Shown here one piece after another: positions 11,394-50,600 of a stretch of DNA of 64,000 nt. The stretch lies in IMG/VR virus record IMGVR_UViG_3300000553_000006, positions 64,001 through 128,000 of that record; one strand, 5' to 3'. Source of the stretch: a virus. The notes beneath the pieces were generated by a model, which was given only the letters and a program-made list of their open reading frames with translations, did no database searches and was not told the origin of the DNA. A program made the translations under genes and the position numbers. Position 1 is the first letter of the stretch; every line of letters starts with the position of its first letter.

Positions 11394-12005
11394 TTAGTCA
11401 ATAACCAGCTTTGCGCTGTTATAATACAATGTTCTTGTATTCAGTCCATTGTATCCACCATTTACATGGTAGGTAACATCTTTGATGTTGTCTGCATCAG
11501 CAAATCTATTGATGCCATTTGCATGCCAATACCACCCAGCGGAACGTGTAGCTCCTTCAGGTGTTGACAAATAAGTCTTAAGCTCATCTAATGACTTGTT
11601 GATAGCTCTTGACAATGCAGTGTAGTTGGTTCTACCTGTAATTTGAATTAGACCACGTCCTCTAAACGCCCATCCGTCACCAGATGCTTCATCACCATTT
11701 CCGCCACGCTCTGCATACGCATGATTAGCAATCTTTTCAGGATTGCGAGCGTAGTTACTTACATTATACTTGTTGAAGTGGCTTGGCCAAGTTTTCAGTA
11801 AACCATCAGCAGAGTAATTGAGATTCTCTACTGTTCTTGAAAAGAGCGCAGATTCTACACCAACCGTAGCCAAGAAAGCGCACTTACGAAGCTTGGTGTT
11901 GATCTCAAACTCAGAGAATGCATTCTCTAAGAATGGAATGTAAATACCAAAGTTAGTGCTTCTAGCCCCATAGGTCTTTTCTAGTTGGTCTACTGTCAGT
12001 GTCAT
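11394..12005 (-). CDS. GH19 (chitinase-like) endolysin
   Basis: 203 aa, a single glycoside hydrolase family 19 domain. The region CAFLATVGVESALF ... VENLNYSADGL holds the likely catalytic acid E51 and second acidic residue E60. GDGWAFRGRGLIQITGRTNY is the substrate-cleft signature, and AGWYWHANGINRFAD lies at the C-terminal side. GH19 phage enzymes cut the peptidoglycan glycan strand to lyse the host. There is no signal peptide, so a holin is needed, and none was recognised in this window. It overlaps the end of the nucleotidyltransferase by 44 bp. T4 uses an unrelated lysozyme (gene e) instead. Confidence 0.9.
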   Translation of the reverse strand: MTLTVDQLEKTYGARSTNFGIYIPFLENAFSEFEINTKLRKCAFLATVGVESALFSRTVENLNYSADGLLKTWPSHFNKYNVSNYARNPEKIANHAYAERGGNGDEASGDGWAFRGRGLIQITGRTNYTALSRAINKSLDELKTYLSTPEGATRSAGWYWHANGINRFADADNIKDVTYHVNGGYNGLNTRTLYYNSAKLVID

Positions 12006-12447
12006 TTTCTGCGATTCTCTTTCTCAATTCAGAGGAACTGAAGGAGTGGTTCCTTGATATATAGTGAATAGGGACAAGAGATGAGGCAGTAATAAGAGAT
12101 TCTTTGCCTGCATAATCTGATCCGAGGAAACGAACATTGATGTCTCGAGTTTTAAGTATGTTGATGAGATCGTTTTCAGTCTCGTAGACTATAATCTCAT
12201 CAACATACTTGCATCCTTCTAACTGAGTATAGCGTTCGTAGATTGATTGTATTGGCTTGTTTTTACTATCACGTTCAATACGTGGATTCACATGCAGACC
12301 AACAATAAGATGATCGCATACCTTCTTGGCTTCTTTTAGGAATAGAACGTGTCCAGTGTGGAATAGATCCCATGCGCTCGCAGTGAATCCTACAACCTTT
12401 TCCACTTGCTCCCGAGGGTAATAGTAGTCCACATTCGTCTTGACCAT
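11962..12447 (-). CDS. Cytidylyltransferase-like nucleotidyltransferase (HxGH family)
   Basis: 161 aa. FTASAWDLFHTGHVLFL carries the HxGH motif (H30, H33) and ISRNHSFSSSELRKRI near 130-145 matches the C-terminal ISRTxxxS(S/T) motif of the glycerol-3-phosphate/ethanolamine cytidylyltransferase and RfaE-like families. Such enzymes join CTP or ATP to a phosphorylated alcohol or sugar, giving an activated donor. The acceptor is not identifiable. One possibility is supply of an activated group for the glycosyltransferases in this window; another is host envelope chemistry. It overlaps the endolysin start. Confidence 0.82.
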   Translation of the reverse strand: MVKTNVDYYYPREQVEKVVGFTASAWDLFHTGHVLFLKEAKKVCDHLIVGLHVNPRIERDSKNKPIQSIYERYTQLEGCKYVDEIIVYETENDLINILKTRDINVRFLGSDYAGKESLITASSLVPIHYISRNHSFSSSELRKRIAENDTDSRPTRKDLWG

Positions 12448-13437: not shown

Positions 13438-13938
13438 ATGACTATTTATTGTCCAATCGCCGAAGCATTAGGTGTGACTCCCCAAGAAATTGACTATGTC
13501 AATGGTTGGGAAGGAAGAATTGTACATACGCATATTCATTGTAACTTCAATCTTGGATTAAAAAGATCTGAAGAAGCAAAACGAAATATGAGTTTAGCAC
13601 AAATCAATTCCAAAAATCACTCTACTAGAAATAAGAAAAGACCAGATTTTGCTAAAAGAATGAAAGGTGAAAACAATCCTTTCTTCAATAAGTCTCATAC
13701 TGCTGAAACTAAATCTAAAATGTCAATAGCTGCACAGAATAGATCAGAAGAAGTAAAGAAAAAGTATTCTGACATAGCTAAAAATAGATCTAAAGCATAT
13801 ATTGAGAAATTAAGTAAAACTCAGAAAACTAAACGACATTTTACTGATGGCGTAAACAATCTTTTCATAAATCCAGCAGATGGTATACCTGATGGTTATC
13901 GTCCAGGAAGAACACTTAAGCCCAGAGTGCTCATTTGA
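13438..13938 (+). CDS. NUMOD3-type homing-endonuclease-like protein lacking a visible nuclease domain
   Basis: 166 aa on the plus strand, with AAGGAGA nine bases before the ATG. NUMOD3-like DNA-binding repeats are visible (KRSEEAKRNMSLAQ; NPFFNKSHTAETKSKMSIAA) and the C-terminus has the TDGVNNLFINPADGIPDGY type segment found in phage homing enzymes. The first 45 residues are too short for, and do not show, a GIY-YIG or HNH core. It could be a decayed or chimeric mobile gene, since its first codons (MTIY) resemble the start of the GIY-YIG gene at 42433. Its 3' end overlaps the gp44 stop on the other strand by 8 bp. Confidence 0.8.
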   Translation: MTIYCPIAEALGVTPQEIDYVNGWEGRIVHTHIHCNFNLGLKRSEEAKRNMSLAQINSKNHSTRNKKRPDFAKRMKGENNPFFNKSHTAETKSKMSIAAQNRSEEVKKKYSDIAKNRSKAYIEKLSKTQKTKRHFTDGVNNLFINPADGIPDGYRPGRTLKPRVLI

Positions 13939-14976: not shown

Positions 14977-15501
14977 ATGTTTACTTATATTCCTTACACT
15001 TACCTCATCGGCTGGACCAACCACAATAAGTGGTATTATGGTGTACGATTTGCTAAGAATTGTTCTCCATCAGAACTGTGGAGAACATATTTCACATCAT
15101 CAACTCATGTAAAAGAATTCAGAAAACAATATGGTGAACCTGATGTAATTGAAATCAGAAAAACCTTTGTTGATTCTCTAAAAGCAAAAACTTGGGAACA
15201 TAAAGTTCTAAAGAAACTCAATGTAATTAATGAAGAGAAATGGCTAAATCAAAACCATAACATGTTTCCATTTAATACTAAGAACAAAGATTATATGAAA
15301 ACGCCTGAATACAAAGAAAAGATGAGGCTTGCTAAACTTGGATCTACACCTTGGAATAAAGGTAAGAAAGGTCTCCAAACACAATCAGCAGAAAGAAGAT
15401 TACAAGTTAGTCAGCAAATGAAAGGAAATACTCATCTTAAAGGATTTAAACATAGTGAAGAAACCAAAAGAAAGATGAGTGAAGCTCACCGAAAATGTTA
15501 G
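14977..15501 (+). CDS. GIY-YIG homing endonuclease with NUMOD3 tail
   Basis: 174 aa. The N-terminal YTYLIGWTNHNKWYYGVRFA is a GIY-YIG core (YLI...YYG, with R following) and WEHKVLKKL provides the conserved Glu region. The C-terminus holds NUMOD3-like segments (EYKEKMRLAKLGSTPWNKGK; HSEETKRKMSEAHRK). It is clearly paralogous to the gene at 42433. Such free-standing enzymes cut sequences near their own locus and spread by recombination. It sits between gp44 and gp45, on the opposite strand, and its stop overlaps the gp45 stop by 4 bp. GGGAGA lies eight bases before the ATG. Confidence 0.88.
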   Translation: MFTYIPYTYLIGWTNHNKWYYGVRFAKNCSPSELWRTYFTSSTHVKEFRKQYGEPDVIEIRKTFVDSLKAKTWEHKVLKKLNVINEEKWLNQNHNMFPFNTKNKDYMKTPEYKEKMRLAKLGSTPWNKGKKGLQTQSAERRLQVSQQMKGNTHLKGFKHSEETKRKMSEAHRKC

Positions 15502-16151: not shown

Positions 16152-16311
16152 AGTTTAACTCCTTCAACATTAACGAACCATCAGTATAAACCCATTGACC
16201 ATTATTGTCAACTGTTGCGTATACCACTTTATTAATACCTAACATGTGTTGTAATTGCTTCTCATATTTCTTTAGAATACAATACACTTCATGTGCTGTA
16301 TATTTTTGCAT
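16138..16311 (-). CDS. Small hypothetical protein upstream of gp45 (57 aa)
   Basis: Frame MQKYTAHEVYCILKKYEKQ, ending LMLKELNYEIK. Its ATG overlaps the TAA of the upstream glycosyltransferase (TAATG) and it runs 14 bp into gp45. Helical, no recognised domain. Its coding sequence also contains the gp45 promoter and ribosome site, so the protein may be partly constrained by those signals. Confidence 0.5.
   Translation of the reverse strand: MQKYTAHEVYCILKKYEKQLQHMLGINKVVYATVDNNGQWVYTDGSLMLKELNYEIK
16183..16211 (-). promoter_or_regulatory. Strong sigma70-like promoter for gp45
   Basis: TTGACA (16206-16211), 17-bp spacer, TATACT (16183-16188) on the minus strand, within the 57-aa gene and about 30 bases before the gp45 ATG. 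Confidence 0.7.
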
Positions 16312-17273
16312 TAGCTCTTGCTACCAAGCTTACCTGGGTCTACTGTTGCAGCAGCACCAACTTGAGCAAGATCCATCAAAGTACCACCGAAGATGTATGA
16401 GCCTACGTGTTGTAGACCAATCCATGGGCATAGCCATACCTTAAGACCAGCATTACGAGCCCATTGACAGAACATGTAATCTTCTGACAAGTAACGGAAT
16501 GAGAACTCATTACCATCTACGTCGTGCTTGGTGTCATCAATAAAGGCTACGATTTCATCAGGAGTAGCTTCTGGGTTCTTCTCAAAGAACTTACGAATCT
16601 GAGTACGAATATGAGCATGCTTATTGTCAATCAGAGCATCAAAGAATGCCATGATTTCGCGAGAACCATCAAATGCCGCAGTGCGCACGTGGTCTGGTCT
16701 GTACATAAGCTCAGTATACTTTTCTTGCATCTTCAGTAGTGAAGACTTACGGATCATCATAAAGCCTGTTCCGCCTTCAAGAATTTCTGCAGGTTCAGTG
16801 AGAAGAATTTGGTTCTTGCCGCCAGCTGGATTGAATACGTAGTCACCAACAAAGCGTCCAAGATTATTTGGGTCTTGATCGGCCATACCCTTATCTACTG
16901 CAACCTTGATCTTTTCCCAAGCAATACACTTCTTTGGGTAAGGACCGCAGAGAATATCATATTCGCTATCTTCTGATTGCATAGCAAGCATGTTAAACAC
17001 ATCTTGAGCATTGAATCCAATGTCAGAGTCAATGAAGATCATGTGAGTACAATCAGAACGAATGAATTCGTCTACGCAGTAGTTACGAGCACGAGTGATC
17101 AAAGATTCGTTAAACAAGTAATAGAAGCGAACTTCAATACCATAGTGGGTTGACATTGCAGCAAGATCGTTAGTAGAACGACAGAACATACCAGCGCATT
17201 GTCCACCGTACATTGGTGTAGCTACGAACAGCTTACGCTTTTGCATTTCCTCGATAGGAACATTTACTTCCAT
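16311..17273 (-). CDS. GT-A fold glycosyltransferase (phage family)
   Basis: 320 aa. LFVATPMYGGQCAG opens a nucleotide-sugar-binding fold, and CTHMIFIDSDIGF contains the DxD metal site (D82-S-D84). GGTGFMMIRKS and LSEDYMFCQWARNAGLKVW with WIGLQHVG are the usual acceptor-side and catalytic segments of this phage group. The start has AAAGGA upstream. It would move a sugar from a nucleotide donor to an unknown acceptor. Lying three genes from the TET-like dioxygenase, it is a candidate for adding or extending a sugar on a hydroxylated DNA base, though host-surface or protein targets cannot be excluded. Confidence 0.82.
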   Translation of the reverse strand: MEVNVPIEEMQKRKLFVATPMYGGQCAGMFCRSTNDLAAMSTHYGIEVRFYYLFNESLITRARNYCVDEFIRSDCTHMIFIDSDIGFNAQDVFNMLAMQSEDSEYDILCGPYPKKCIAWEKIKVAVDKGMADQDPNNLGRFVGDYVFNPAGGKNQILLTEPAEILEGGTGFMMIRKSSLLKMQEKYTELMYRPDHVRTAAFDGSREIMAFFDALIDNKHAHIRTQIRKFFEKNPEATPDEIVAFIDDTKHDVDGNEFSFRYLSEDYMFCQWARNAGLKVWLCPWIGLQHVGSYIFGGTLMDLAQVGAAATVDPGKLGSKS

Positions 17274-17284
17274 TTGAAATCCTT

Positions 17285-17695
17285 TTATTGGTGCTTTTCA
17301 TCTCTCAAGTCTACGCCTGCACCGGAACCAAATCCAGACTCATCTAGAATTGGCTGTACTGATACTTCCATAAGAATCTCTGGCTTACTTGATGTTACTG
17401 GAGTAGCAGGAGTCTTTGTGGCTTGTTCTTGATCGTGAATGTGTAATTGAATGATTGCGTAGTGAATAACCTTTAGAAGATCACTACGCCAAGCAGCCGG
17501 ATCACCCTTGCGACCGTAACGTTGTGCATACTTAAGTACGTTACCGATACAGAAGCCTGTGCCGTGTCCTGAGTCAATAATGAACTCAGTTGCTTGATAT
17601 TTGTTTTGGGAATAGTGTTGACCGTAGGTCTTGTCGATGTAAGATTGAAGTTCGGCGAGCGTGGCGCCTTCATTATACTTGTAGTCAATAGTCAT
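17285..17695 (-). CDS. DUF3310-like protein
   Basis: 136 aa. LQSYIDKTYGQHYSQNKYQ, FIIDSGHGTGFCIGNVLKYAQRYGRKGD and WRSDLLKVIHYAI correspond to the DUF3310 pattern common in phages, in which a short helical domain carries conserved His, Tyr and Gly residues. Its function is not established; it is sometimes linked to nucleotide metabolism. The C-terminal third is low complexity. A perfect TATAAATA late box lies 30 bases upstream. Confidence 0.65.
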   Translation of the reverse strand: MTIDYKYNEGATLAELQSYIDKTYGQHYSQNKYQATEFIIDSGHGTGFCIGNVLKYAQRYGRKGDPAAWRSDLLKVIHYAIIQLHIHDQEQATKTPATPVTSSKPEILMEVSVQPILDESGFGSGAGVDLRDEKHQ

Positions 17696-17724
17696 TGAAA
17701 CCTCACTGGATCATTCTTACGTTC

Positions 17725-17732
17725 TATTTATA
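17725..17732 (-). promoter_or_regulatory. Late promoter (TATAAATA) before DUF3310-like gene
   Basis: Perfect T4-type late box on the minus strand in the 50-base gap after the TET-associated-type glycosyltransferase, 30 bases before the ATG at 17695. Confidence 0.6.
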
Positions 17733-17745
17733 TAGCGCGTAGGGG

Positions 17746-18540
17746 TTAGTTGAAAAAATCTTCCAACGTATTTGTTGGAACTTCTGCGGTTCTGTCCTTC
17801 AGGCGAAGCTCTGCGTGGCCAGTTGTTTCACGAATATACATTGTGCAATGGTGTGGAAACATCTCAACGATCTTACAAATAGAATCATGGACGTATTCCT
17901 TGGTACGAATGGTTTGTAGACCACCATCTTCCTTGTAGTAGTTTGACTTGACAGTATAGTTGTCTAGTCTGCATACAGCACCGTTCTTGATGTATTGACG
18001 AATGCTGTATTCATAATCTTCACCGTGATTGGTAACACGAGCAAGGAATGGATCGTGTTCAACAATAACGCCGAACATAGAAGCAATCACATAACAAAGC
18101 TTTGTGTAAACGCGATCCTTCATGAAGTATGCGTTAGAAGCAGCGTAGATACCAAAGGTCTTGGCACCAACCTTTTCGCATTCTTCAAAGCCGCGTTCAA
18201 TGATTTCCTTTTCAAGATTGTCGATCGGACCAAGCTTTTGTTCACTGATCTTGCGTTGCACTTCCTCAACGTCATCGTCAAACATCATCAACTTGGTTCC
18301 TTCTGGATACCAGTTCTCGATGAAGTTACGTTGAGCACCAATAGTTGGAACACCAAGAACGATGTTCTGACAAGGAGTATCCTTCAGACTCTTAGTATAC
18401 GCGTCAAGTTCTTCTTCGTTAGCCACGAACACAGTGATCTTTGCTGGATCAATTTTGTGATGTTCAAGAACCTTCAGCGTCTTCTTCTTGATAGTTTCCG
18501 GTCTCTTATATGACGGAATAGCAATTTTATAGTCAATCAT
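17746..18540 (-). CDS. TET-associated-type glycosyltransferase (TAGT-like)
   Basis: 264 aa. KIAIPSYKRPETI, ITVFVANEEELDAY, GVPTIGAQRNF and KLMMFDDDVEEV (D88-D90, metal site) form a compact GT-A nucleotide-sugar fold. VTNHGEDYEYSIRQ and the Tyr/Lys-rich end complete it. The pattern fits the TET-associated glycosyltransferase family, whose members lie beside TET/JBP dioxygenases in phages and are thought to glycosylate the hydroxymethyl base. Here its ATG sits directly on the stop of the dioxygenase gene, so the two are translationally coupled. The family assignment is from memory of the motifs; the substrate is inferred. Confidence 0.78.
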   Translation of the reverse strand: MIDYKIAIPSYKRPETIKKKTLKVLEHHKIDPAKITVFVANEEELDAYTKSLKDTPCQNIVLGVPTIGAQRNFIENWYPEGTKLMMFDDDVEEVQRKISEQKLGPIDNLEKEIIERGFEECEKVGAKTFGIYAASNAYFMKDRVYTKLCYVIASMFGVIVEHDPFLARVTNHGEDYEYSIRQYIKNGAVCRLDNYTVKSNYYKEDGGLQTIRTKEYVHDSICKIVEMFPHHCTMYIRETTGHAELRLKDRTAEVPTNTLEDFFN

Positions 18541-19877
18541 TAAAAGAAATCCTCCAATGATCCGGCGGTAGCTTTACCGTAAGGATCTTCCATATTATGT
18601 TTGGCCATGTAATCAAACCACTCTTGCTCATCCCACATACCTGGAGAAACTCCATTCCAAAGCTTGCGCCAATATGGGTGATTCTTGTTAGCTCTACGTT
18701 CTTCTACGTATTGCTTACGTAGTTGTTCATACTCCCAAGACTTACAGTCAAGTAGATCTTCGCGAAGATAAGCAACGATAGTCATACGATCTGGATTTTC
18801 GCCACCGAGTGGAGCGTTTCCGTGAAGAGCAGTGTGATTGGCTACAAGAAGTAGATCACCTGGCTCTAGCTTAACGGCTGCTCTATACTCTGGTAGAATC
18901 AACTCAGCGCCTTCCCAACCTTTACCGAGAGCTGACAAATTAGAGAAGCCAGCAGCAAAGTCGCCAGCGTCAAGGTGAGCAGCTGTACGGAAGTTGTGAT
19001 TTACAGTGAGAGTACTAAAGACTGTTTCATCAATAGTGAAACGAGAATCTAGTTGATCAGCCGCGTAACGTTGAGCAGACCAACGTCGGGGAAGCAGTTC
19101 CCGGAAACAGTGGTTCAGTTTCTTAAGAAACTTGAATGACTTAGCAAAGTCGTCAGGGTATTTTTCGGTAAAGCTTGTAACACGCCCATAAGGAATTCTT
19201 GGATATCTTGAATAGAAGCCTGCAACACCGGACATAACTGTTTGGGCGTAGTTGGTTTCGGAGATAAAGTTGTCAAGAATGAATTGAGCTTCTTCTCTTC
19301 TTGTTGCATCATCTTTATTTGATAATCCCTCAACCCATCTGTCGAACCATCCAAAGTAGGGATCGTGGTGTGCACAGACCTCGCTACGTAACCATACGAA
19401 ACCACGTGTGATATCAACTTGCTTTCCTTCATGTCTCTTCTTGATAGCTTCTAGACTGTCATCGTCTAGTAGTGAGTTAGCTGTTCGAGTAAGGAACTCA
19501 AGAACTTCCACTTGATAAGGAGTAACCCACTCACGTCCGCCGCGACCAGAAGCATGCAGGAACTCACCGCGAGGACCAGCCGCCATCCCCCGATTTTGAG
19601 ATTCTGTGGCTGCGTTGATGAGTCCTTCATAGCATAGATCCTGTTCTTCTTGAGTGAACACATTCTTACGGAACATTACAAGAATATTATCTTCGTTCAT
19701 TGTTCCGTCAATAGAAGGTCCATAAACGTCAGTATCTTCAGTAATCAGAGTGTCATAATGACTCTCATCAAGAAACACACCACGTAGGTGGTCGCAGTTT
19801 AGTTTATTCTTGGCGTAGATTACATTTACATGTTTCTTGCGGCAAGGTTGATCACAGTCTTTAAGACAGTTCTTCAT
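18540..19877 (-). CDS. TET/JBP-family Fe(II)/2-oxoglutarate dioxygenase
   Basis: 445 aa from the ATG at 19877 (GTGGAAGA upstream); a TTG eight codons earlier is the alternative, and positions here count from that TTG. NHNFRTAAHLDAGD holds the iron ligands H309 and D311. DLLLVANHTALH holds the distal ligand H360. DRMTIVAYLR supplies the 2-oxoglutarate arginine R372. GFSNLSALGKGWEGAELILP is the intervening strand typical of TET/JBP enzymes. The N-terminus has a Cys cluster (C12, C16, C20). The family hydroxylates methyl groups of bases in DNA: 5-methylcytosine for TET, thymine for JBP. Coupling to a TAGT-like gene suggests the product is then glycosylated. Confidence 0.88.
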   Translation of the reverse strand: MKNCLKDCDQPCRKKHVNVIYAKNKLNCDHLRGVFLDESHYDTLITEDTDVYGPSIDGTMNEDNILVMFRKNVFTQEEQDLCYEGLINAATESQNRGMAAGPRGEFLHASGRGGREWVTPYQVEVLEFLTRTANSLLDDDSLEAIKKRHEGKQVDITRGFVWLRSEVCAHHDPYFGWFDRWVEGLSNKDDATRREEAQFILDNFISETNYAQTVMSGVAGFYSRYPRIPYGRVTSFTEKYPDDFAKSFKFLKKLNHCFRELLPRRWSAQRYAADQLDSRFTIDETVFSTLTVNHNFRTAAHLDAGDFAAGFSNLSALGKGWEGAELILPEYRAAVKLEPGDLLLVANHTALHGNAPLGGENPDRMTIVAYLREDLLDCKSWEYEQLRKQYVEERRANKNHPYWRKLWNGVSPGMWDEQEWFDYMAKHNMEDPYGKATAGSLEDFF

Positions 19878-19922
19878 TTGTATTCTTCCACGTTGAGTCA
19901 ATGATCAAGTATTTAGACAGAT

Positions 19923-19951
19923 ATTATACTACACTTTGACAAATTTGTCAA
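19923..19951 (-). promoter_or_regulatory. Perfect-consensus sigma70 promoter for the TET-like gene
   Basis: TTGACA (19946-19951), 17-bp spacer, TATAAT (19923-19928) on the minus strand. All twelve consensus bases match. It overlaps the last codons of the deformylase gene and points at the dioxygenase ATG at 19877. Confidence 0.8.
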
Positions 19952-23214: not shown

Positions 23215-23781
23215 TTAAGCCTTATCTATACAAGAAATGGTATGCCTAGAAATAACATTTGTGGCGTAGCTTTTACCACAGTTACTACAAAGCACCTTTG
23301 AGAATACTCTTCCTTTGTTGTAAGAATGTCCCATATGAGCTAATCTATTTTGTTCTTTAGCTGATTCGGTATGTTTCTTACCTTTGAATCCAGAAATCGT
23401 CCCTTTCTTTGATTCTGAAATTTTTGCAGCCCAAAGCTCTTTTTCTTTGAACTTTCTAGACTTTCCTGTTAAAGAATCTCTACGTTTTGCAATATGCTCT
23501 TCGGATTGAGATTTTCCTAATTTAGCAATTCGCATTTTATGTTTTGATTCATCACTACATTTAATACCCAATCTACCTAATTTTTGCGCTGTTTTTATTG
23601 CTTCAGCGTTTGTTATTTGACCTGATAAGGTTTGCCAAGCAATTTTATCTTGCCATCTACCATACATTTCATATAATTGTTTATGCGCTTCAGCATGCTC
23701 TTCTATAGACAATTCAATTAAATTATCTGGAGAATTAGATCCTCCAACATGTTTTGGTATTTTATGATGTTTGTGATACAT
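23215..23781 (-). CDS. HNH homing endonuclease with NUMOD3 repeats and zinc finger
   Basis: 188 aa. The N-terminal YHKHHKIPKHVGGSNSPDNL with IELSIEEHAEAHK is an HNH nuclease core. It is followed by NUMOD3-like segments (CSDESKHKMRIAKLG; KSQSEEHIAKRRDSLTG) and a C-terminal LCSNCGKSYATNVISRHTISC finger. This is a free-standing homing enzyme inserted between gp47 and gp46 on the same strand. It begins 2 bases after the gp47 stop and ends 1 base before the gp46 start, so it sits cleanly in the junction. Confidence 0.88.
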   Translation of the reverse strand: MYHKHHKIPKHVGGSNSPDNLIELSIEEHAEAHKQLYEMYGRWQDKIAWQTLSGQITNAEAIKTAQKLGRLGIKCSDESKHKMRIAKLGKSQSEEHIAKRRDSLTGKSRKFKEKELWAAKISESKKGTISGFKGKKHTESAKEQNRLAHMGHSYNKGRVFSKVLCSNCGKSYATNVISRHTISCIDKA

Positions 23782-38439: not shown

Positions 38440-40095
38440 TTAGAACCAACTGTCCCAGGCTTTGTTGAATTCTGCATCTAGATCAATTGTCTTAACAATA
38501 TCTTCGTCAGGCATTCCATCGTCATATACACCGAATGGAAGTAGATCTTCCATAACTTCTTCTTCGCTTCTATCTCGTAATTGAGTAATTGTATTTATGT
38601 CTGAGTATTCCTTAAAGAATGATTGGTCTGAGAACCAAGCAAACAGAACAAGACACATTACCAAGTCGTCGTGACAACCAGGTTCAGCTTCATATGAGTT
38701 GTTTTTCTTTGAGAACGTAGACATTTCTTGAATGGTATTAAAGTCATTGATGATGAATTGATTTTGCTCAACAAGCAACTTCAACATAGAACAACCAACA
38801 GCCTTAACGGTCTTAGTAGTCTTTACGCCGCGCTCTGCATTTTTACCGTAGCCGAGAGTTACCTTACGCCCTCCGTTCTTACCGTCGTTTGCAGTGTAAA
38901 GAATGTTGTCATAACCGTATTCATAAAGCACATTGTCTACTACTTGCTGACCGATGTCATTGTTTTCGGCAAGTAGAGCGGCTTGATTGTACAGCTTACA
39001 GATGTTGAATAGAATCTTTGAATATTCGATTGGAGTGATACGATTGTTTCTGAAGGTACACACTTGTTCGTATGGCATTTTTGTAACATCAATTACTTGG
39101 AATGCAGAGTAGTCAAGACCCTTACCACGTGAGGTGTCAGCAACAACTGCATAGATGTGATTTTCTTCGGGAGCCTTGTATTGATAGACTCCATCCTTAG
39201 CCATAAGAGGATCGATTGGGAACAGTTCTTTCAACTTCCAACCAGCAATCAGTGTACCAGAAGAACCGAGGAACTGTACTTCGTGTTCCTGACTGAACTT
39301 CTCAATGTCACCACCCATACCAGCAAGAGTAGAACGCTTCCATTCTTCGTCTCTTCCTGGAACCTTTGACCAGTGAACTTCGATAGGGTTATAATCATTC
39401 TTTTGAGTAAGAGCTTCTGCCCACAACTTGTAAAAGTGGTTCATACCGTTTGGAGTAGAAACCAGAACGATCTTAGTAGTCTTACCAGATGAAATGGTTG
39501 GAAATACAGATGTGAAGAATTCTTCCCAGTTTTCGATGAAGGCTGCTTCGTCGATGAAGAGCAGGTTGATGGCGTAACCACGAATGGCTGATGCTGAGGT
39601 AGCAGAAGCGATTACGCGTGAGTTGTTTTCAAGTTCTAGAGAACGTTTGTTCCATTCTACCACACCTTGTTGTAGCCACTTTGGTAGATGTTCGTAAGCA
39701 AGCTGTACCTTGCCAAGAATTTCTTGTGCAGTTTCAGCCTTGTTGGCAAGAATAGCTACGTTCTTTTCTGAGTGGAAGATGATGTACCAAAGAATAAATC
39801 CACAGGTAGTAGTAGACTTACCAACCTGACGAGCAGTCGTGATGATTGTATGGCGATTATCAGCCATACTGTTAATCATATCTTGTTGGAAATCGTGCAG
39901 CTTGAAGTTAACTAGACCATCATCTACGTTGATGATCTTCATGTATGTTTCAATAAAGTAGATTGGATTTTGTGCACACTTAAGGTATTCTTGAAGAAGC
40001 TCAGGAGTCCACTGTACAGAAACACCGCTTCTTTTTAAGTTGGAGTTCCCCATATAGGAACTATAATCAGAAATGTTTTCTATAGATCCTTTCAT
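38440..40095 (-). CDS. gp17: Terminase large subunit (T4 gp17)
   Basis: 551 aa from the ATG giving MKGSIENIS, which overlaps the stop of the upstream NUMOD3 gene as ATGA and has AAGGA nine bases before it; the frame to 40137 begins with TTG and is rejected. ATPase motifs are ARQVGKST (88-95) and FIDEAAF (about 180-186). The RNase H-like nuclease has VVADTSRGKGLDYSAF (D320, D328) and PGCHDDLVMCLVLF near the end. The motor fills proheads and cuts concatemers. Confidence 0.97.
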   Translation of the reverse strand: MKGSIENISDYSSYMGNSNLKRSGVSVQWTPELLQEYLKCAQNPIYFIETYMKIINVDDGLVNFKLHDFQQDMINSMADNRHTIITTARQVGKSTTTCGFILWYIIFHSEKNVAILANKAETAQEILGKVQLAYEHLPKWLQQGVVEWNKRSLELENNSRVIASATSASAIRGYAINLLFIDEAAFIENWEEFFTSVFPTISSGKTTKIVLVSTPNGMNHFYKLWAEALTQKNDYNPIEVHWSKVPGRDEEWKRSTLAGMGGDIEKFSQEHEVQFLGSSGTLIAGWKLKELFPIDPLMAKDGVYQYKAPEENHIYAVVADTSRGKGLDYSAFQVIDVTKMPYEQVCTFRNNRITPIEYSKILFNICKLYNQAALLAENNDIGQQVVDNVLYEYGYDNILYTANDGKNGGRKVTLGYGKNAERGVKTTKTVKAVGCSMLKLLVEQNQFIINDFNTIQEMSTFSKKNNSYEAEPGCHDDLVMCLVLFAWFSDQSFFKEYSDINTITQLRDRSEEEVMEDLLPFGVYDDGMPDEDIVKTIDLDAEFNKAWDSWF

Positions 40096-40583
40096 GATAC
40101 ACAATCCTTGTGGTGGTTTACATAATGACAGTACCAAATACCCTTTGATAAAGTACCAGATTCATTAGGTTTGTGACAAAAAACGCAAGAAACTACTACT
40201 CTATTTTTAGCAGCTAAAGATATTTTCTTCTTTGTTTCTTGTGAATGTGGGGAAGTATGAGAACCTACAGGTGGTCGAAATTTACCTGATCTACAAAGTT
40301 CTTTCATTAATTTGCTATGTTCTGGTCGTTTCTTTCCAGTGTTCTTTTTAGTAGCGGACACTGTCATTTTGATCATATGCTCTTTAGATTTTGGTTTACC
40401 TTTAAGAGATTCCGAAATTCTTTTCTTATGTTCTTCTGGAAATGATCTTCCTCTATTCCAATCAGTTTTTTGTTGTTTAGCGTAAGGAGAAAAACAATCT
40501 TCTGTTGTAGAATATTCAAATAATTTTGGAGTTAGACCTAATGTGATGCAAAGTCTATGTGAGTCAATAATGTTCTCTACCAT
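40092..40583 (-). CDS. NUMOD3-type homing-endonuclease-like protein with zinc finger, no clear nuclease core
   Basis: 163 aa. At least three NUMOD3-like repeats (SFPEEHKKRISESLKGKPK; SKEHMIKMTVSATKK; SQETKKKISLAAKN) are followed by a Cys/His finger (CVFCHKP ... YCHYVNHHKDC). No GIY-YIG is present, and an HNH can only be argued from the last His/Cys residues. It lies between gp16 and gp17 in the same direction: its ATG overlaps the gp16 TAA and its TGA overlaps the gp17 ATG, so insertion kept the reading overlaps on both sides. Probably a mobile gene; its activity is uncertain. Confidence 0.8.
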   Translation of the reverse strand: MVENIIDSHRLCITLGLTPKLFEYSTTEDCFSPYAKQQKTDWNRGRSFPEEHKKRISESLKGKPKSKEHMIKMTVSATKKNTGKKRPEHSKLMKELCRSGKFRPPVGSHTSPHSQETKKKISLAAKNRVVVSCVFCHKPNESGTLSKGIWYCHYVNHHKDCVS

Positions 40584-41002
40584 TATTCCTCATTCTTTTT
40601 CTGATCAGCAAGAAACTTCTGTAGTTCTGCAGTACTACCCACAAACAGATTGTTATTGATAGTGTCGCCGCCATTGCTTGCTCCAGGAGATCTGCCTTCA
40701 ATATCTTTGATTTGCTTACTTAGTGCAAGCAGTTCTTTGTTCGCATGAACAAGCTTTTCAATCATACCAGCAACGACTTCGTATGCTCTTGGGTGTTGAG
40801 TCTGAGAAGCAAAGTCAATCATATCACCAAGTGCTTGTTGACCATCTTCAATGATAGAACGAATATTAGAACGTGCATAGTCGTAGTCATCAGAAGCCTT
40901 GGTAGACGCCTTTGGCTCTTCAGGTGGAAGGACTTCTTGTCTTGCTGGAACAATTGGAGTAAGTCCTAGGAATTTGCTAATTGGATCGTTGTTCGCTGCC
41001 AT
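40583..41002 (-). CDS. gp16: Terminase small subunit (T4 gp16)
   Basis: 139 aa; T4 gp16 is 164 aa. DDYDYARSNIRSIIEDGQQAL, HPRAYEVVAGMIEKLVHANK and NNLFVGSTAELQKFL are the conserved helix pair and C-terminal segment of gp16. It forms rings that stimulate the gp17 ATPase and help pick DNA for packaging. Both ends meet mobile genes through stop/start overlaps. Confidence 0.93.
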   Translation of the reverse strand: MAANNDPISKFLGLTPIVPARQEVLPPEEPKASTKASDDYDYARSNIRSIIEDGQQALGDMIDFASQTQHPRAYEVVAGMIEKLVHANKELLALSKQIKDIEGRSPGASNGGDTINNNLFVGSTAELQKFLADQKKNEE

Positions 41003-41574
41003 TAGATATACTTTCTCAATTCTTTATTATATTTCTTACCCTTACGTAAACTGTTCATTATTCTATTTTGTTCAGAGCGTAGAGGCTTTTTGTGTCCTTT
41101 CATATTTTCAGTATTACTTTTTGGTCTCTTTAGTTTGATAATGGTTTCTTGAGAATGTTTTCTATTAAGAGCACTCGCTCTCATTTTTGCTTTTGTTTCT
41201 TCAGAAAGAGATTTCCCTCTCCAATAACCACCCATATTTACTTTGTTGGTTTTTGGTTTACGCATTTTAGATTTTGCGTCATCAGTATGATTCCCGAAGA
41301 ACCCTCCATCCATTCCATTCTCGAATTTTAAGTTTGCCCAATTCTCTGATTCAACAATATTATTCTCTACAGAAAATGATAATGCGAAAGAAGAACATTC
41401 TTTTTCTGAAGGAAATTCCCAGACTTTAAGTGTTTCTACAAATTTTCCGTGCGTCTTTAAGTGTCTTTTCCAATATTTCCCTGATCCATAATACTTATAT
41501 GGATCTCTAGTAGTTTTACCAAAATACTTAAGACCTGTAATTTTATGCTGTTTTATGTATAGAAAGATGGTCAT
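41002..41574 (-). CDS. GIY-YIG homing endonuclease (Seg-like) with NUMOD3 repeats
   Basis: 190 aa. LYIKQHKITGLKYFGKTTRD is the GIY-YIG core, followed by YYGSGKYWKRHLKTHG typical of T4 Seg-type enzymes. NUMOD3-like repeats follow (SLSEETKAKMRASALNRK; HSQETIIKLKRPKSN). It is inserted between gp15 and gp16 in the same direction, with an ATGA overlap at its start and TAATG at its end. It should nick or cut the matching uninserted junction in related phages. Confidence 0.9.
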   Translation of the reverse strand: MTIFLYIKQHKITGLKYFGKTTRDPYKYYGSGKYWKRHLKTHGKFVETLKVWEFPSEKECSSFALSFSVENNIVESENWANLKFENGMDGGFFGNHTDDAKSKMRKPKTNKVNMGGYWRGKSLSEETKAKMRASALNRKHSQETIIKLKRPKSNTENMKGHKKPLRSEQNRIMNSLRKGKKYNKELRKYI

Positions 41575-47688: not shown

Positions 47689-50600
47689 TTAAGCAGCAGC
47701 TAGGATCGCAGGAGCACCGTACCAAGTTGTTCCACCATCTCTAGTTGCAAATACAAGAATATCAACACCTGATGCAGTAAGTGTTGGAGCAGAACCACCA
47801 GCCCATTTAGTACCTGACATCCAGGTAATTGTTTGAGAACCACCATTGGTTAGCTCTAGAACAAACGACGTAGCATTACCAGTAGCAGCAACGTTCGCAG
47901 CGACAAAGGTGTTGGCAGCAGTAATTGTTTTAGAGAAGTATGTTCCTTGGTTCAAATCGAACACAGAACCTGTACCAACTGCGACTGCATCTTCAGCCAT
48001 CAGACCTTTATTATATAGTCCGCCAGTTGCAGTAATAGCACCAGTTACACCAAGTGTTGATCCGACAGTTGCAGCGCCAGAGAATGATGCGTTAGCTGTC
48101 CAGTTCCACCAACCAGTAGAGTTAGCGGACATATAAGAGTATTGAGAAGCACCTGTGTTGCTAACTATCTGAATAATAGATTGGTCAGTAGCAGAAGCAT
48201 CGCCTCTGATAATAACAGCCCCAGTAGTACTAGAAGCTGGTGACTTAACTAGAAGTGTACCAGTAGCTGCGACAAGGTTTCCTGATGCAGTAATTACAGT
48301 TCCTTGAATGGTAGAAGTAGCATTAACGAAACCAGTAATGGTTGTGTTGCCTGCTGCTAGTGTTGTTACACCAGTTACAGCGCCTGCAAGAGAAAGACCA
48401 GCACCACCTTGGATTGTTGACGTTGCATTAATAAATCCAGTTACTGTAGTGTTACCAGTTGCAAGAGTTGTAATACCAGTTACAGCTCCAGCTAGAGTCA
48501 TACCTGCTCCACCTTGAATGGTAGAAGTGGCATTGATGAACCCTGTGATGGTTGTGTTACCAGCAGCCAAAGTAGTAATACCGGAAGCAGCACCAGCGAT
48601 AGTTAGACCGGCTCCACCTTGAATGGTTGAGGTTACGTTAGCGAAACCAGTAATCGTTGTGTTACCACCAGCAATAGTTGGGTTACCAGAGATAGCTGTT
48701 GAAGTGATGGCTGTGTTAATAGTAGCATTACCAACATAGATATTTGTTGGAGTCAAGTTTACGTTAGCTCCAACTGCGATAGCAGTTGCTGAGATTGCAG
48801 AGTTTACGGTAGAGTTACCAACATACATGTTAGTAGCTGTTAAGTTTACGTTAGCTCCAACTTTAGCTGATGTTGAGTTGATAGTAGCATTTACTGTTGA
48901 GTTTCCTAGAGTTAGGAAAGCTGTAGAGTTACCAACCATCGTAATGCTTGCATTGTATGTATGAACACCAGTAAAGGTATATGCACCAGAAGTGTTTACA
49001 TAGTTGGCAAGGTTAGATGATAGCTGTGAATTTGATACTACGTTAACAGCAGCAACTGAACCAACGAATGACGTATTGTTAGCAGTCAATCCAGCTACGT
49101 TAGAAGAAAGTCCTGCAGTAGTTTGATATCCAGAAGCAGCAGTTCCACCAAGATAAGAAGCATTATTTGAAGACAAAGTAGCTACGTTTGCTGACAAACC
49201 AGCTGTTGTTTGATATCCAGCTGCAGCAGTTCCACCAAGATAATTTGAGTTATTGGCTGTAATGTTTGGTTGTGATGTGGTAACCAGAGTACCTGTGATT
49301 TGGTTAGCATACAAGTTCCAAAGAGCACCAGAAGAACCAAGATTTAGATTGTTAGATGCTGGTCCGAAGCCTACGTTTGAGGTCCATGAAGTAGTCGCAT
49401 CCTTATACACAAGGTTAGCAAAGGTTGAAGCAACGATACCTGCACCATCGGTAAGAGCACTGGTTCCTGCGCTGTTAGCGAAGACCATGTTCTTATCGTT
49501 TGTAGTAATTACAGTAGAGTTAACGAATGTAGTTGTACCAGCTAGAGTTAGATTTCCAGTCACAGTCAAGCTACCAGAAACCAGACCGTCGCCTGTTACG
49601 TTTAGAGAACCTACGTTTGCAGCACCAGAAGTAACAACGCTTCCTGTTGTAACCTGAGTAGCTGTTACACTACTGTTTACAGTAGAGTTACCAACTGATA
49701 CGTTTGTTGGAGAAAGGTTTACGTTGGCACCTACGCTCACAGAAGTAGATGTTTTCATTGAGTTAACTGTTGAGTTACCAACAGACATAGATGAAGTAGA
49801 TAGATTTACGTTGGCTCCAACATTCATTCCGCTTAGAGCACTGTGAGTATATGCGTTGATAATACCAACAGTAGAGTTACCTACTGCAAAGTAGTTGTTA
49901 ACTGTTACGTTACCTGTGAAGTTTACACCAGAAACAAGAGCGTAGTTGTTTAGGTTGTTTGTAAGGTTAGTAGAGGTAACATAGTTGGCTAGATTGCTTG
50001 ACAGTTGTGTATTTGACACAACGTTGGCAGCTGATACAGTTCCAACGAATGATGTGTTGTTAGCTGTTAGACCAGCAACATTTGATGCTAGTCCAGCTGT
50101 TGTTTGATAGTTGGTAAGGTTAGATGATAGCTGTGAATTTGATACTACGTTTGCGGCTGATACTGTACCAACGAAGCTTGTGTTGTTGGCAGTCAAACCA
50201 GCTACGTTAGAAGATAGTCCAGCTGTTGTTTGATAGTTGCTTAGATTTGAAGATAGTTGAGCGTTTGAAACAACGTTAGCAGCAGGTAGAGTTCCAATAT
50301 AACTTGCGCTATTTGCAGCACCAGTGAACGCAGTAGAGTTGATTGTTGAGTTTACAGTAGAGTTACCAACAGTAACTGTAGTTGAGATCAAAGGAGCAGA
50401 AGTGTTTGCGTAGTTTGATGCAGCCAATCCACCAAGATTGTATGCATTGTTTGCACCAGAACCGTTAGCGATTAGTGTTCCGCCAATTGAGATAGCAGTC
50501 GTATTGATTACTGTGTTGGTTACGTTCGTACCAACCTGCAAAGATACAGTTGTTGTTAGATTGTTGCCGATTGTTACGTTGTTTGTTGTCTTGTTGAATG

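Follow-up and report, generated by a model that had tools for sequence, protein, structure and literature searches.

Bacteriophage T4 makes its hydroxymethylated base before replication, and the locus described here raises the question of whether another T4-like phage installs and decorates such a base in DNA that is already finished. The locus lies in a 64,000-nucleotide stretch (the window; positions 64,001 to 128,000 of the 134,193-bp IMG/VR record IMGVR_UViG_3300000553_000006), in which an initial annotation, made from the sequence alone, had proposed a DNA base hypermodification cassette composed of a TET/JBP dioxygenase, a TET-associated glycosyltransferase (TAGT) and a second glycosyltransferase. 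All sequence features that it named exist where it placed them. The reading favored here, with a probability of about 0.72, is that TET and TAGT form a two-step, post-replicative hypermodification unit in which TET is constant and the tailoring enzyme is exchangeable. Coordinates refer to the window unless the record is named.

The dioxygenase and its coupled glycosyltransferase

18540–19877, minus strand: TET/JBP Fe(II)/2-oxoglutarate dioxygenase of 445 amino acids, recognized by Pfam profile, fold and conserved residues
17746–18540, minus strand: TAGT glycosyltransferase of 264 amino acids with an FDDD metal motif, recognized by PF20691 and phrog_842
18538–18542, minus strand: TET/TAGT stop/start overlap TAATG, with one base shared and a GGAGG at 18555–18551
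19923–19951, minus strand: match to a sigma-70-type promoter (TTGACA, 17 nucleotides, TATAAT), lying upstream of TET where the peptide deformylase gene ends

The 445-residue protein matches the Pfam profile Tet_JBP (PF12851) over residues 223–373 with 78.8 bits against a cut-off of 34.9 (E = 3.4e-22), a score far above chance, and a search of the whole record finds this one TET copy. Its ligands for iron and 2-oxoglutarate are H301 and D303 of the HxD motif, the distal H352 and R364, all of which are kept in 35/35 T4-like relatives. The initial annotation had listed the same motif set as residues 309, 311, 360 and 372, the numbering of a 453-residue reading that starts farther upstream, at the TTG at 19901; the ATG at 19877 is preferred because a GGAAG stands 7 nucleotides before it, whereas the TTG has no site of this kind in front. 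In an AlphaFold model built from 16 related sequences, the 26 best fold matches in the PDB are all TET-family proteins (CcTet, NgTet1, CMD1 and human TET2; E 2.4e-9 to 4e-5), with modest query-normalized template modelling scores of 0.26–0.45. A profile search of PDB sequences ranked TET2 first, and a single-sequence search was uninformative. Profile, motif and predicted fold thus identify the protein as a true TET/JBP dioxygenase. Placement in a dioxygenase family that does not act on DNA, the outcome that the initial annotation had named as speaking against it, did not occur, because the profile and fold matches are those of TET proteins and the TauD profile stays below its cut-off.

The protein encoded directly downstream covers the full profile of PF20691 (positions 1–205; 61.4 bits, cut-off 27.5, E 1.5e-16) and matches phrog_842, annotated as beta-glucosyl-HMC-alpha-glucosyltransferase, with E 1.7e-18. 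Its aspartate-rich metal motif reads FDDDVEE, so that the annotated DDD site stands, and by these matches the protein is a true TAGT glycosyltransferase. PF20691 takes in the T6 enzyme that puts a second glucose on glucosyl-5-hydroxymethylcytosine (PMC13216743). The stop/start coupling of the two genes in an operon, also part of the initial annotation, is borne out by the shared TAATG and the GGAGG in front of it.

The window has no perfect promoter match other than the one upstream of TET, against an expectation of 0.14. A match at the corresponding place is also perfect (12/12) in phage C48C1 and in the related contig L027, reaches 11/12 in L013 and L014 and 10/12 in several other loci (L016–L018 are among those with similar sites), and is weak or unconvincing in the rest. 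This agreement with the consensus suggests that the TET cassette may be a separate transcription unit read by the host RNA polymerase.

A constant TET and an exchangeable slot

17285–17695, minus strand: DUF3310 protein (PF11753, 38.1 bits), which is conserved and bounds the exchange slot on its far side

The relatives comprise 31 viral contigs with close TETs and four named complete phages, namely Stenotrophomonas phage DLP6, phage C48C1, Caulobacter phage Cr30 and Synechococcus phage S-CBWM1. TET is kept across all of them, and the genes directly after it are swapped. Most contigs carry TET first, then the variable genes, DUF3310 (which closes the slot in most loci), the second glycosyltransferase and the sliding clamp. 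The slot holds TAGT alone in the studied phage and several others. Elsewhere it is filled by the amino-acid:DNA transferase ADDT (PF18724) and a P-loop kinase, to which a glutamine amidotransferase, a GNAT protein and an amidoligase-like protein may be added, or by another glycosyltransferase-like protein. In C48C1 it contains an additional UDP-galactopyranose mutase. Whatever its family, the gene after TET overlaps the TET stop codon by 1 or 4 nucleotides in 26/32 loci.

The tailoring genes have been exchanged independently of TET, since presence of TAGT requires eight changes on the TET tree (shuffled labels: mean 8.9, with 163/500 as low), of which the starred branches force at least five, and since TAGT identity is 79–87% between contigs whose TETs are 52–70% identical. 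The TAGT closest to that of the studied phage, for instance, is found in L039 (84%), a contig with one of the least similar TETs (52%), and the similarity order of the TAGTs departs from that of the TETs. TET is thus the constant partner, and the genes behind it have been repeatedly exchanged. Such a slot may allow phages to decorate their DNA differently by exchanging a single step while the hydroxylase stays the same, which is a plausible response to defences that recognize bases.

Several loci hold further variations. In Cr30 (L010, 14235–16471), ADDT stands beside a TAGT-like gene and is followed by a gene for inositol-1-phosphate synthase, which hints at further decoration. An RrnaAD-like methyltransferase gene directly follows TET in three contigs (L032, 2044–2820; L033; L042), and its product could be a non-classical DNA methyltransferase. 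In L017, a homing-endonuclease-like gene separates TET from TAGT. In several contigs, TET is immediately preceded by a gene for a Pyr_excise-like DNA-binding protein.

Proposed chemistry and the evidence that weighs against it

In the proposed mechanism, TET would hydroxylate a pyrimidine of finished phage DNA at its 5-methyl group, the translationally coupled TAGT would then attach a sugar to the new hydroxymethyl group, and the sugar would shield the DNA from nucleases. TET would be the constant maker of a chemical handle, and the decoration behind it exchangeable: glycosylation, by TAGT or another glycosyltransferase, in some phages, and in others the action of ADDT and kinase, joined or not by amidoligase and GNAT. 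For the studied phage, a glycosylated 5-hydroxymethylpyrimidine made after replication is the most likely product of the predicted pair. That the substrate is DNA, that the steps run in this order and that they protect the phage is what we infer.

A phenotype has been recorded for a cultured relative. In DLP6, consecutive genes encode TAGT (39.1 bits), a nucleotidyltransferase/kinase-like protein and TET, and a review lists the DNA of this phage as resistant to restriction enzymes (PMC8228603). The digestion panel held enzymes whose sites are free of thymine, namely AciI, HpaII, SmaI, ApaI and HaeIII (PMC5349666).

Several results weigh against a TET/TAGT hypermodification unit. The digestion results are not printed in the original DLP6 paper, so the resistance is suggestive only, and the literature examined contains no nucleoside data on any of these phages. 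The TET model is of moderate confidence (pLDDT, the predicted local distance difference test, 71.6) and weakest around D306, with residues 305–307 below 50. A search for a cytosine C5-methyltransferase (PF00145) found none in the whole record (E <= 10) or in 16 related records, namely the complete DLP6, C48C1, Cr30 and S-CBWM1 and 12 contigs (E <= 1), and N4/N6 methyltransferases (PF01555) were not found either. No dCMP hydroxymethylase or thymidylate synthase (PF00303) scores over the cut-off in the record, DLP6, C48C1 or S-CBWM1.

The same PF00145 search gave matches in the Melnitz phage as well as in control genomes. The best PF00303 signal in the 134-kb record is an 11-bit, sub-threshold stretch, and the thymidylate synthase of Cr30 reads PYNIA, with the Asn of dUMP-type enzymes (rule given in PMC8670742). 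What had been noted for the window, that it holds neither a C5-methyltransferase nor a dCMP hydroxymethylase, therefore extends to the entire record, as does the picture of a T4-like phage lacking the pre-replicative route of T4. Without either, the lineage must draw on thymine, on host methylation or on a methylating enzyme of another kind.

Target base and source of the methyl group

In CMD1, Asp350, Phe416 and Arg418 bind 5-methylcytosine, and in docking thymine bonds poorly to Asp350 (PMC7854593); NgTet1 Asp234 and TET2 Asn1387 occupy the place of Asp350 (PMC11040006). The TET of the window has D306 (HxD+3), Y370 (R+6) and R372 (R+8) at these pocket places, with Y370 and R372 kept in 35/35 and D306 in 33/35 T4-like relatives. 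At HxD+3, Asp is also present in the methyltransferase-linked Melnitz TETs, and Asn in actinophage TETs without a methyltransferase; at R+8, the T4-like TETs have Arg, whereas Melnitz-type TETs have Asp or Gly. The pocket residues favor cytosine over thymine in a comparison that has no JBP structure or sequence as calibration, and for this reason they leave room for thymine. Together with the thymine-free sites of the DLP6 panel, the match of D306, Y370 and R372 to CMD1 puts cytosine as the target base at roughly even odds.

The rival that survives best is that thymine is the substrate of TET, as it is of JBP, and is converted to 5-hydroxymethyluracil in finished DNA, which TAGT would glycosylate to a base J-like product. 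This reading has an appreciable, though clearly minor, chance of being correct. It needs no methyltransferase, since the methyl group is already part of thymine, and it suits the failure to find a C5-methyltransferase in five T4-like genomes with TET (four of them complete) and in six other complete phages (Acadian, Prairie, Zemanar, Margaery, HTVC112P and P12024L). ADDT, which is known from thymidine hypermodification, occupies the same slot with its kinase, and genes of thymidylate supply (ThyX and dCMP deaminases) are present. Against it stands the match of D306, Y370 and R372 to a pocket that binds thymine poorly, and resistance at thymine-free restriction sites would be unexpected. The kinase was rejected as proof of thymine, as it also adjoins TETs linked to a C5-methyltransferase (28/72 loci). 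Extended to a widespread T4-like lineage in which TET would act on thymine in finished DNA, independently of methyltransferases and with interchangeable decorations derived from sugars or amino acids, in a phage chemistry resembling that of base J, the claim is a tentative one.

Alternatively, 5-methylcytosine could be made by a phage protein that was not recognized, such as a methyltransferase too divergent for PF00145. Many genes of the phage are without a family, and three relatives have the RrnaAD-like methyltransferase in their slot. However, a Pfam scan that covered 66 more of the phage's proteins gave a single methyltransferase-like protein, of the TylF/Methyltransf_24 type and without an orthologue in the relatives compared, and the one additional gene that occurs in all four TET-carrying relatives and is absent from the two TET-less ones encodes a Pyr_excise-like protein common among phages that lack TET, which makes this explanation unlikely. 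The Pyr_excise-like protein (2249–2794, phrog_624) was also rejected as a missing partner, as it occurs in 619 phage records, of which hardly any has a TET. Nor is there support for ThyX as the maker of 5-methylcytosine: ThyX is absent from C48C1 and Cr30 and weak in DLP6, where the match (36 bits) is to a 343-residue frame of unusual length (L051, DLP6 49878–50366).

A cytosine-type pocket without a phage methyltransferase would also fit a TET that acts on 5-methylcytosine made by the host, either leaving sparse, host-dependent marks or serving regulation or counter-defence at methylated sites only. Retention of TET across hosts as different as Caulobacter, Stenotrophomonas and Synechococcus argues against this, and the broad restriction resistance of DLP6 DNA is ill-suited to sparse marks, so that host methylation is an improbable source. 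Least probable of all is that the dioxygenase or TAGT acts on RNA, protein or a cell-surface glycan, for although surfaces or capsids can be targets of phage glycosyltransferases, the nearest solved folds are DNA-base oxidases and TAGT is homologous to a DNA glucosyltransferase and is swapped with ADDT.

Relation to known modification systems

Burke et al. reportedly described, in 2021, phage TETs with a co-encoded C5-methyltransferase. Loci of this type, exemplified by Melnitz, likewise cluster TET/JBP with tailoring enzymes, TAGT and the kinase among them, but 66/72 of them contain the C5-methyltransferase that was not found in the studied genome and its relatives. The phage TETs studied so far partner their own methyltransferase, while the T4-like lineage has neither that enzyme nor the T4 route in recognizable form; the genes are carried by two cultured phages, Cr30 and DLP6. 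In T-even phages, as predicted here, a sugar is placed on the hydroxymethyl group of phage DNA, by the PF20691 family in the case of T6 TAGT; there, however, hydroxymethyl-dCMP is made before replication, and here a TET is present and a PF00303 enzyme over the cut-off is not.

Base J of kinetoplastids is made by JBP and the J-glucosyltransferase, a succession of TET/JBP dioxygenase and glycosyltransferase on duplex DNA that is also predicted here, in other organisms, with another transferase and with a pocket that looks cytosine-like. The phages phiW-14 and M6, which hypermodify thymidine, share ADDT and the P-loop kinase with the slot in relatives of the studied phage. Phages of this type make 5-hydroxymethyl-dUMP before replication, whereas the studied lineage would use TET on DNA instead. 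New here are the exchange slot behind TET, the lack of a recognizable C5-methyltransferase or dCMP hydroxymethylase, the CMD1-like pocket and the co-occurrence in DLP6 of TET and TAGT with DNA listed as restriction-resistant.

Neighboring genes and sugar supply

16311–17273, minus strand: second glycosyltransferase-like protein (phrog_1574, DxD), a neighbor and not a member of the cassette
11962–12447, minus strand: nucleotidyltransferase resembling HldE domain II or glycerol-3-phosphate cytidylyltransferase (TIGR02199, E 8.7e-17, below the equivalog cut-off)

The second glycosyltransferase of the initial annotation is present, with an invariant D82-x-D84. No Pfam family matches it over its cut-off, and a low-confidence model (pLDDT 65.8) gives weak GT-A-like fold matches. 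Its orthologues stand directly before gene 45 (the sliding clamp) in the TET-less Sinorhizobium phages phiM12 and phiN3 and Rhizobium phage RHph_I1_18. It is thus a gene of the phage lineage and not of the TET cassette, and was rejected as a cassette member; what remains of the proposed cassette is TET with TAGT.

The HxGH nucleotidyltransferase, the one sugar-supply candidate noted in the window, resembles heptose-1-phosphate adenylyltransferase and glycerol-3-phosphate cytidylyltransferase, has an orthologue only in Cr30 among the phages compared and could possibly supply sugar to the cassette. Beyond the window, the record adds a GmhA-like isomerase and an HddA-like kinase (record positions 39735–41355). 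The GmhA-like, HddA-like and HldE-like set, which suggests a partial nucleoside-diphosphate-heptose pathway carried by the phage, occurs in the studied genome and in Cr30, but not in DLP6, C48C1 or S-CBWM1. With the genes missing there and not adjoining the cassette, heptose as the donor sugar was left as speculation. In Cr30, the same set lies next to a glycosyltransferase gene and a UDP-glucose 4-epimerase gene.

Matches to defence systems in PADLOC were limited to weak hits. The replication cluster is interrupted by NUMOD3, GIY-YIG or HNH homing-endonuclease-like genes (13438–13938, 14977–15501, 23215–23781 and many sites in the record). At the place of the TET cassette, the TET-less RHph_I1_18 (L054, 1032–4093) carries genes for 6-pyruvoyl-tetrahydropterin synthase and GTP cyclohydrolase I, which are typical of 7-deazaguanine synthesis and perhaps represent another DNA modification at the same locus. 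In the actinophages Prairie (L045, of Arthrobacter) and Acadian and Zemanar (L044 and L059, mycobacteriophages), a ParB-like gene is followed by TET and then by TAGT or ADDT.

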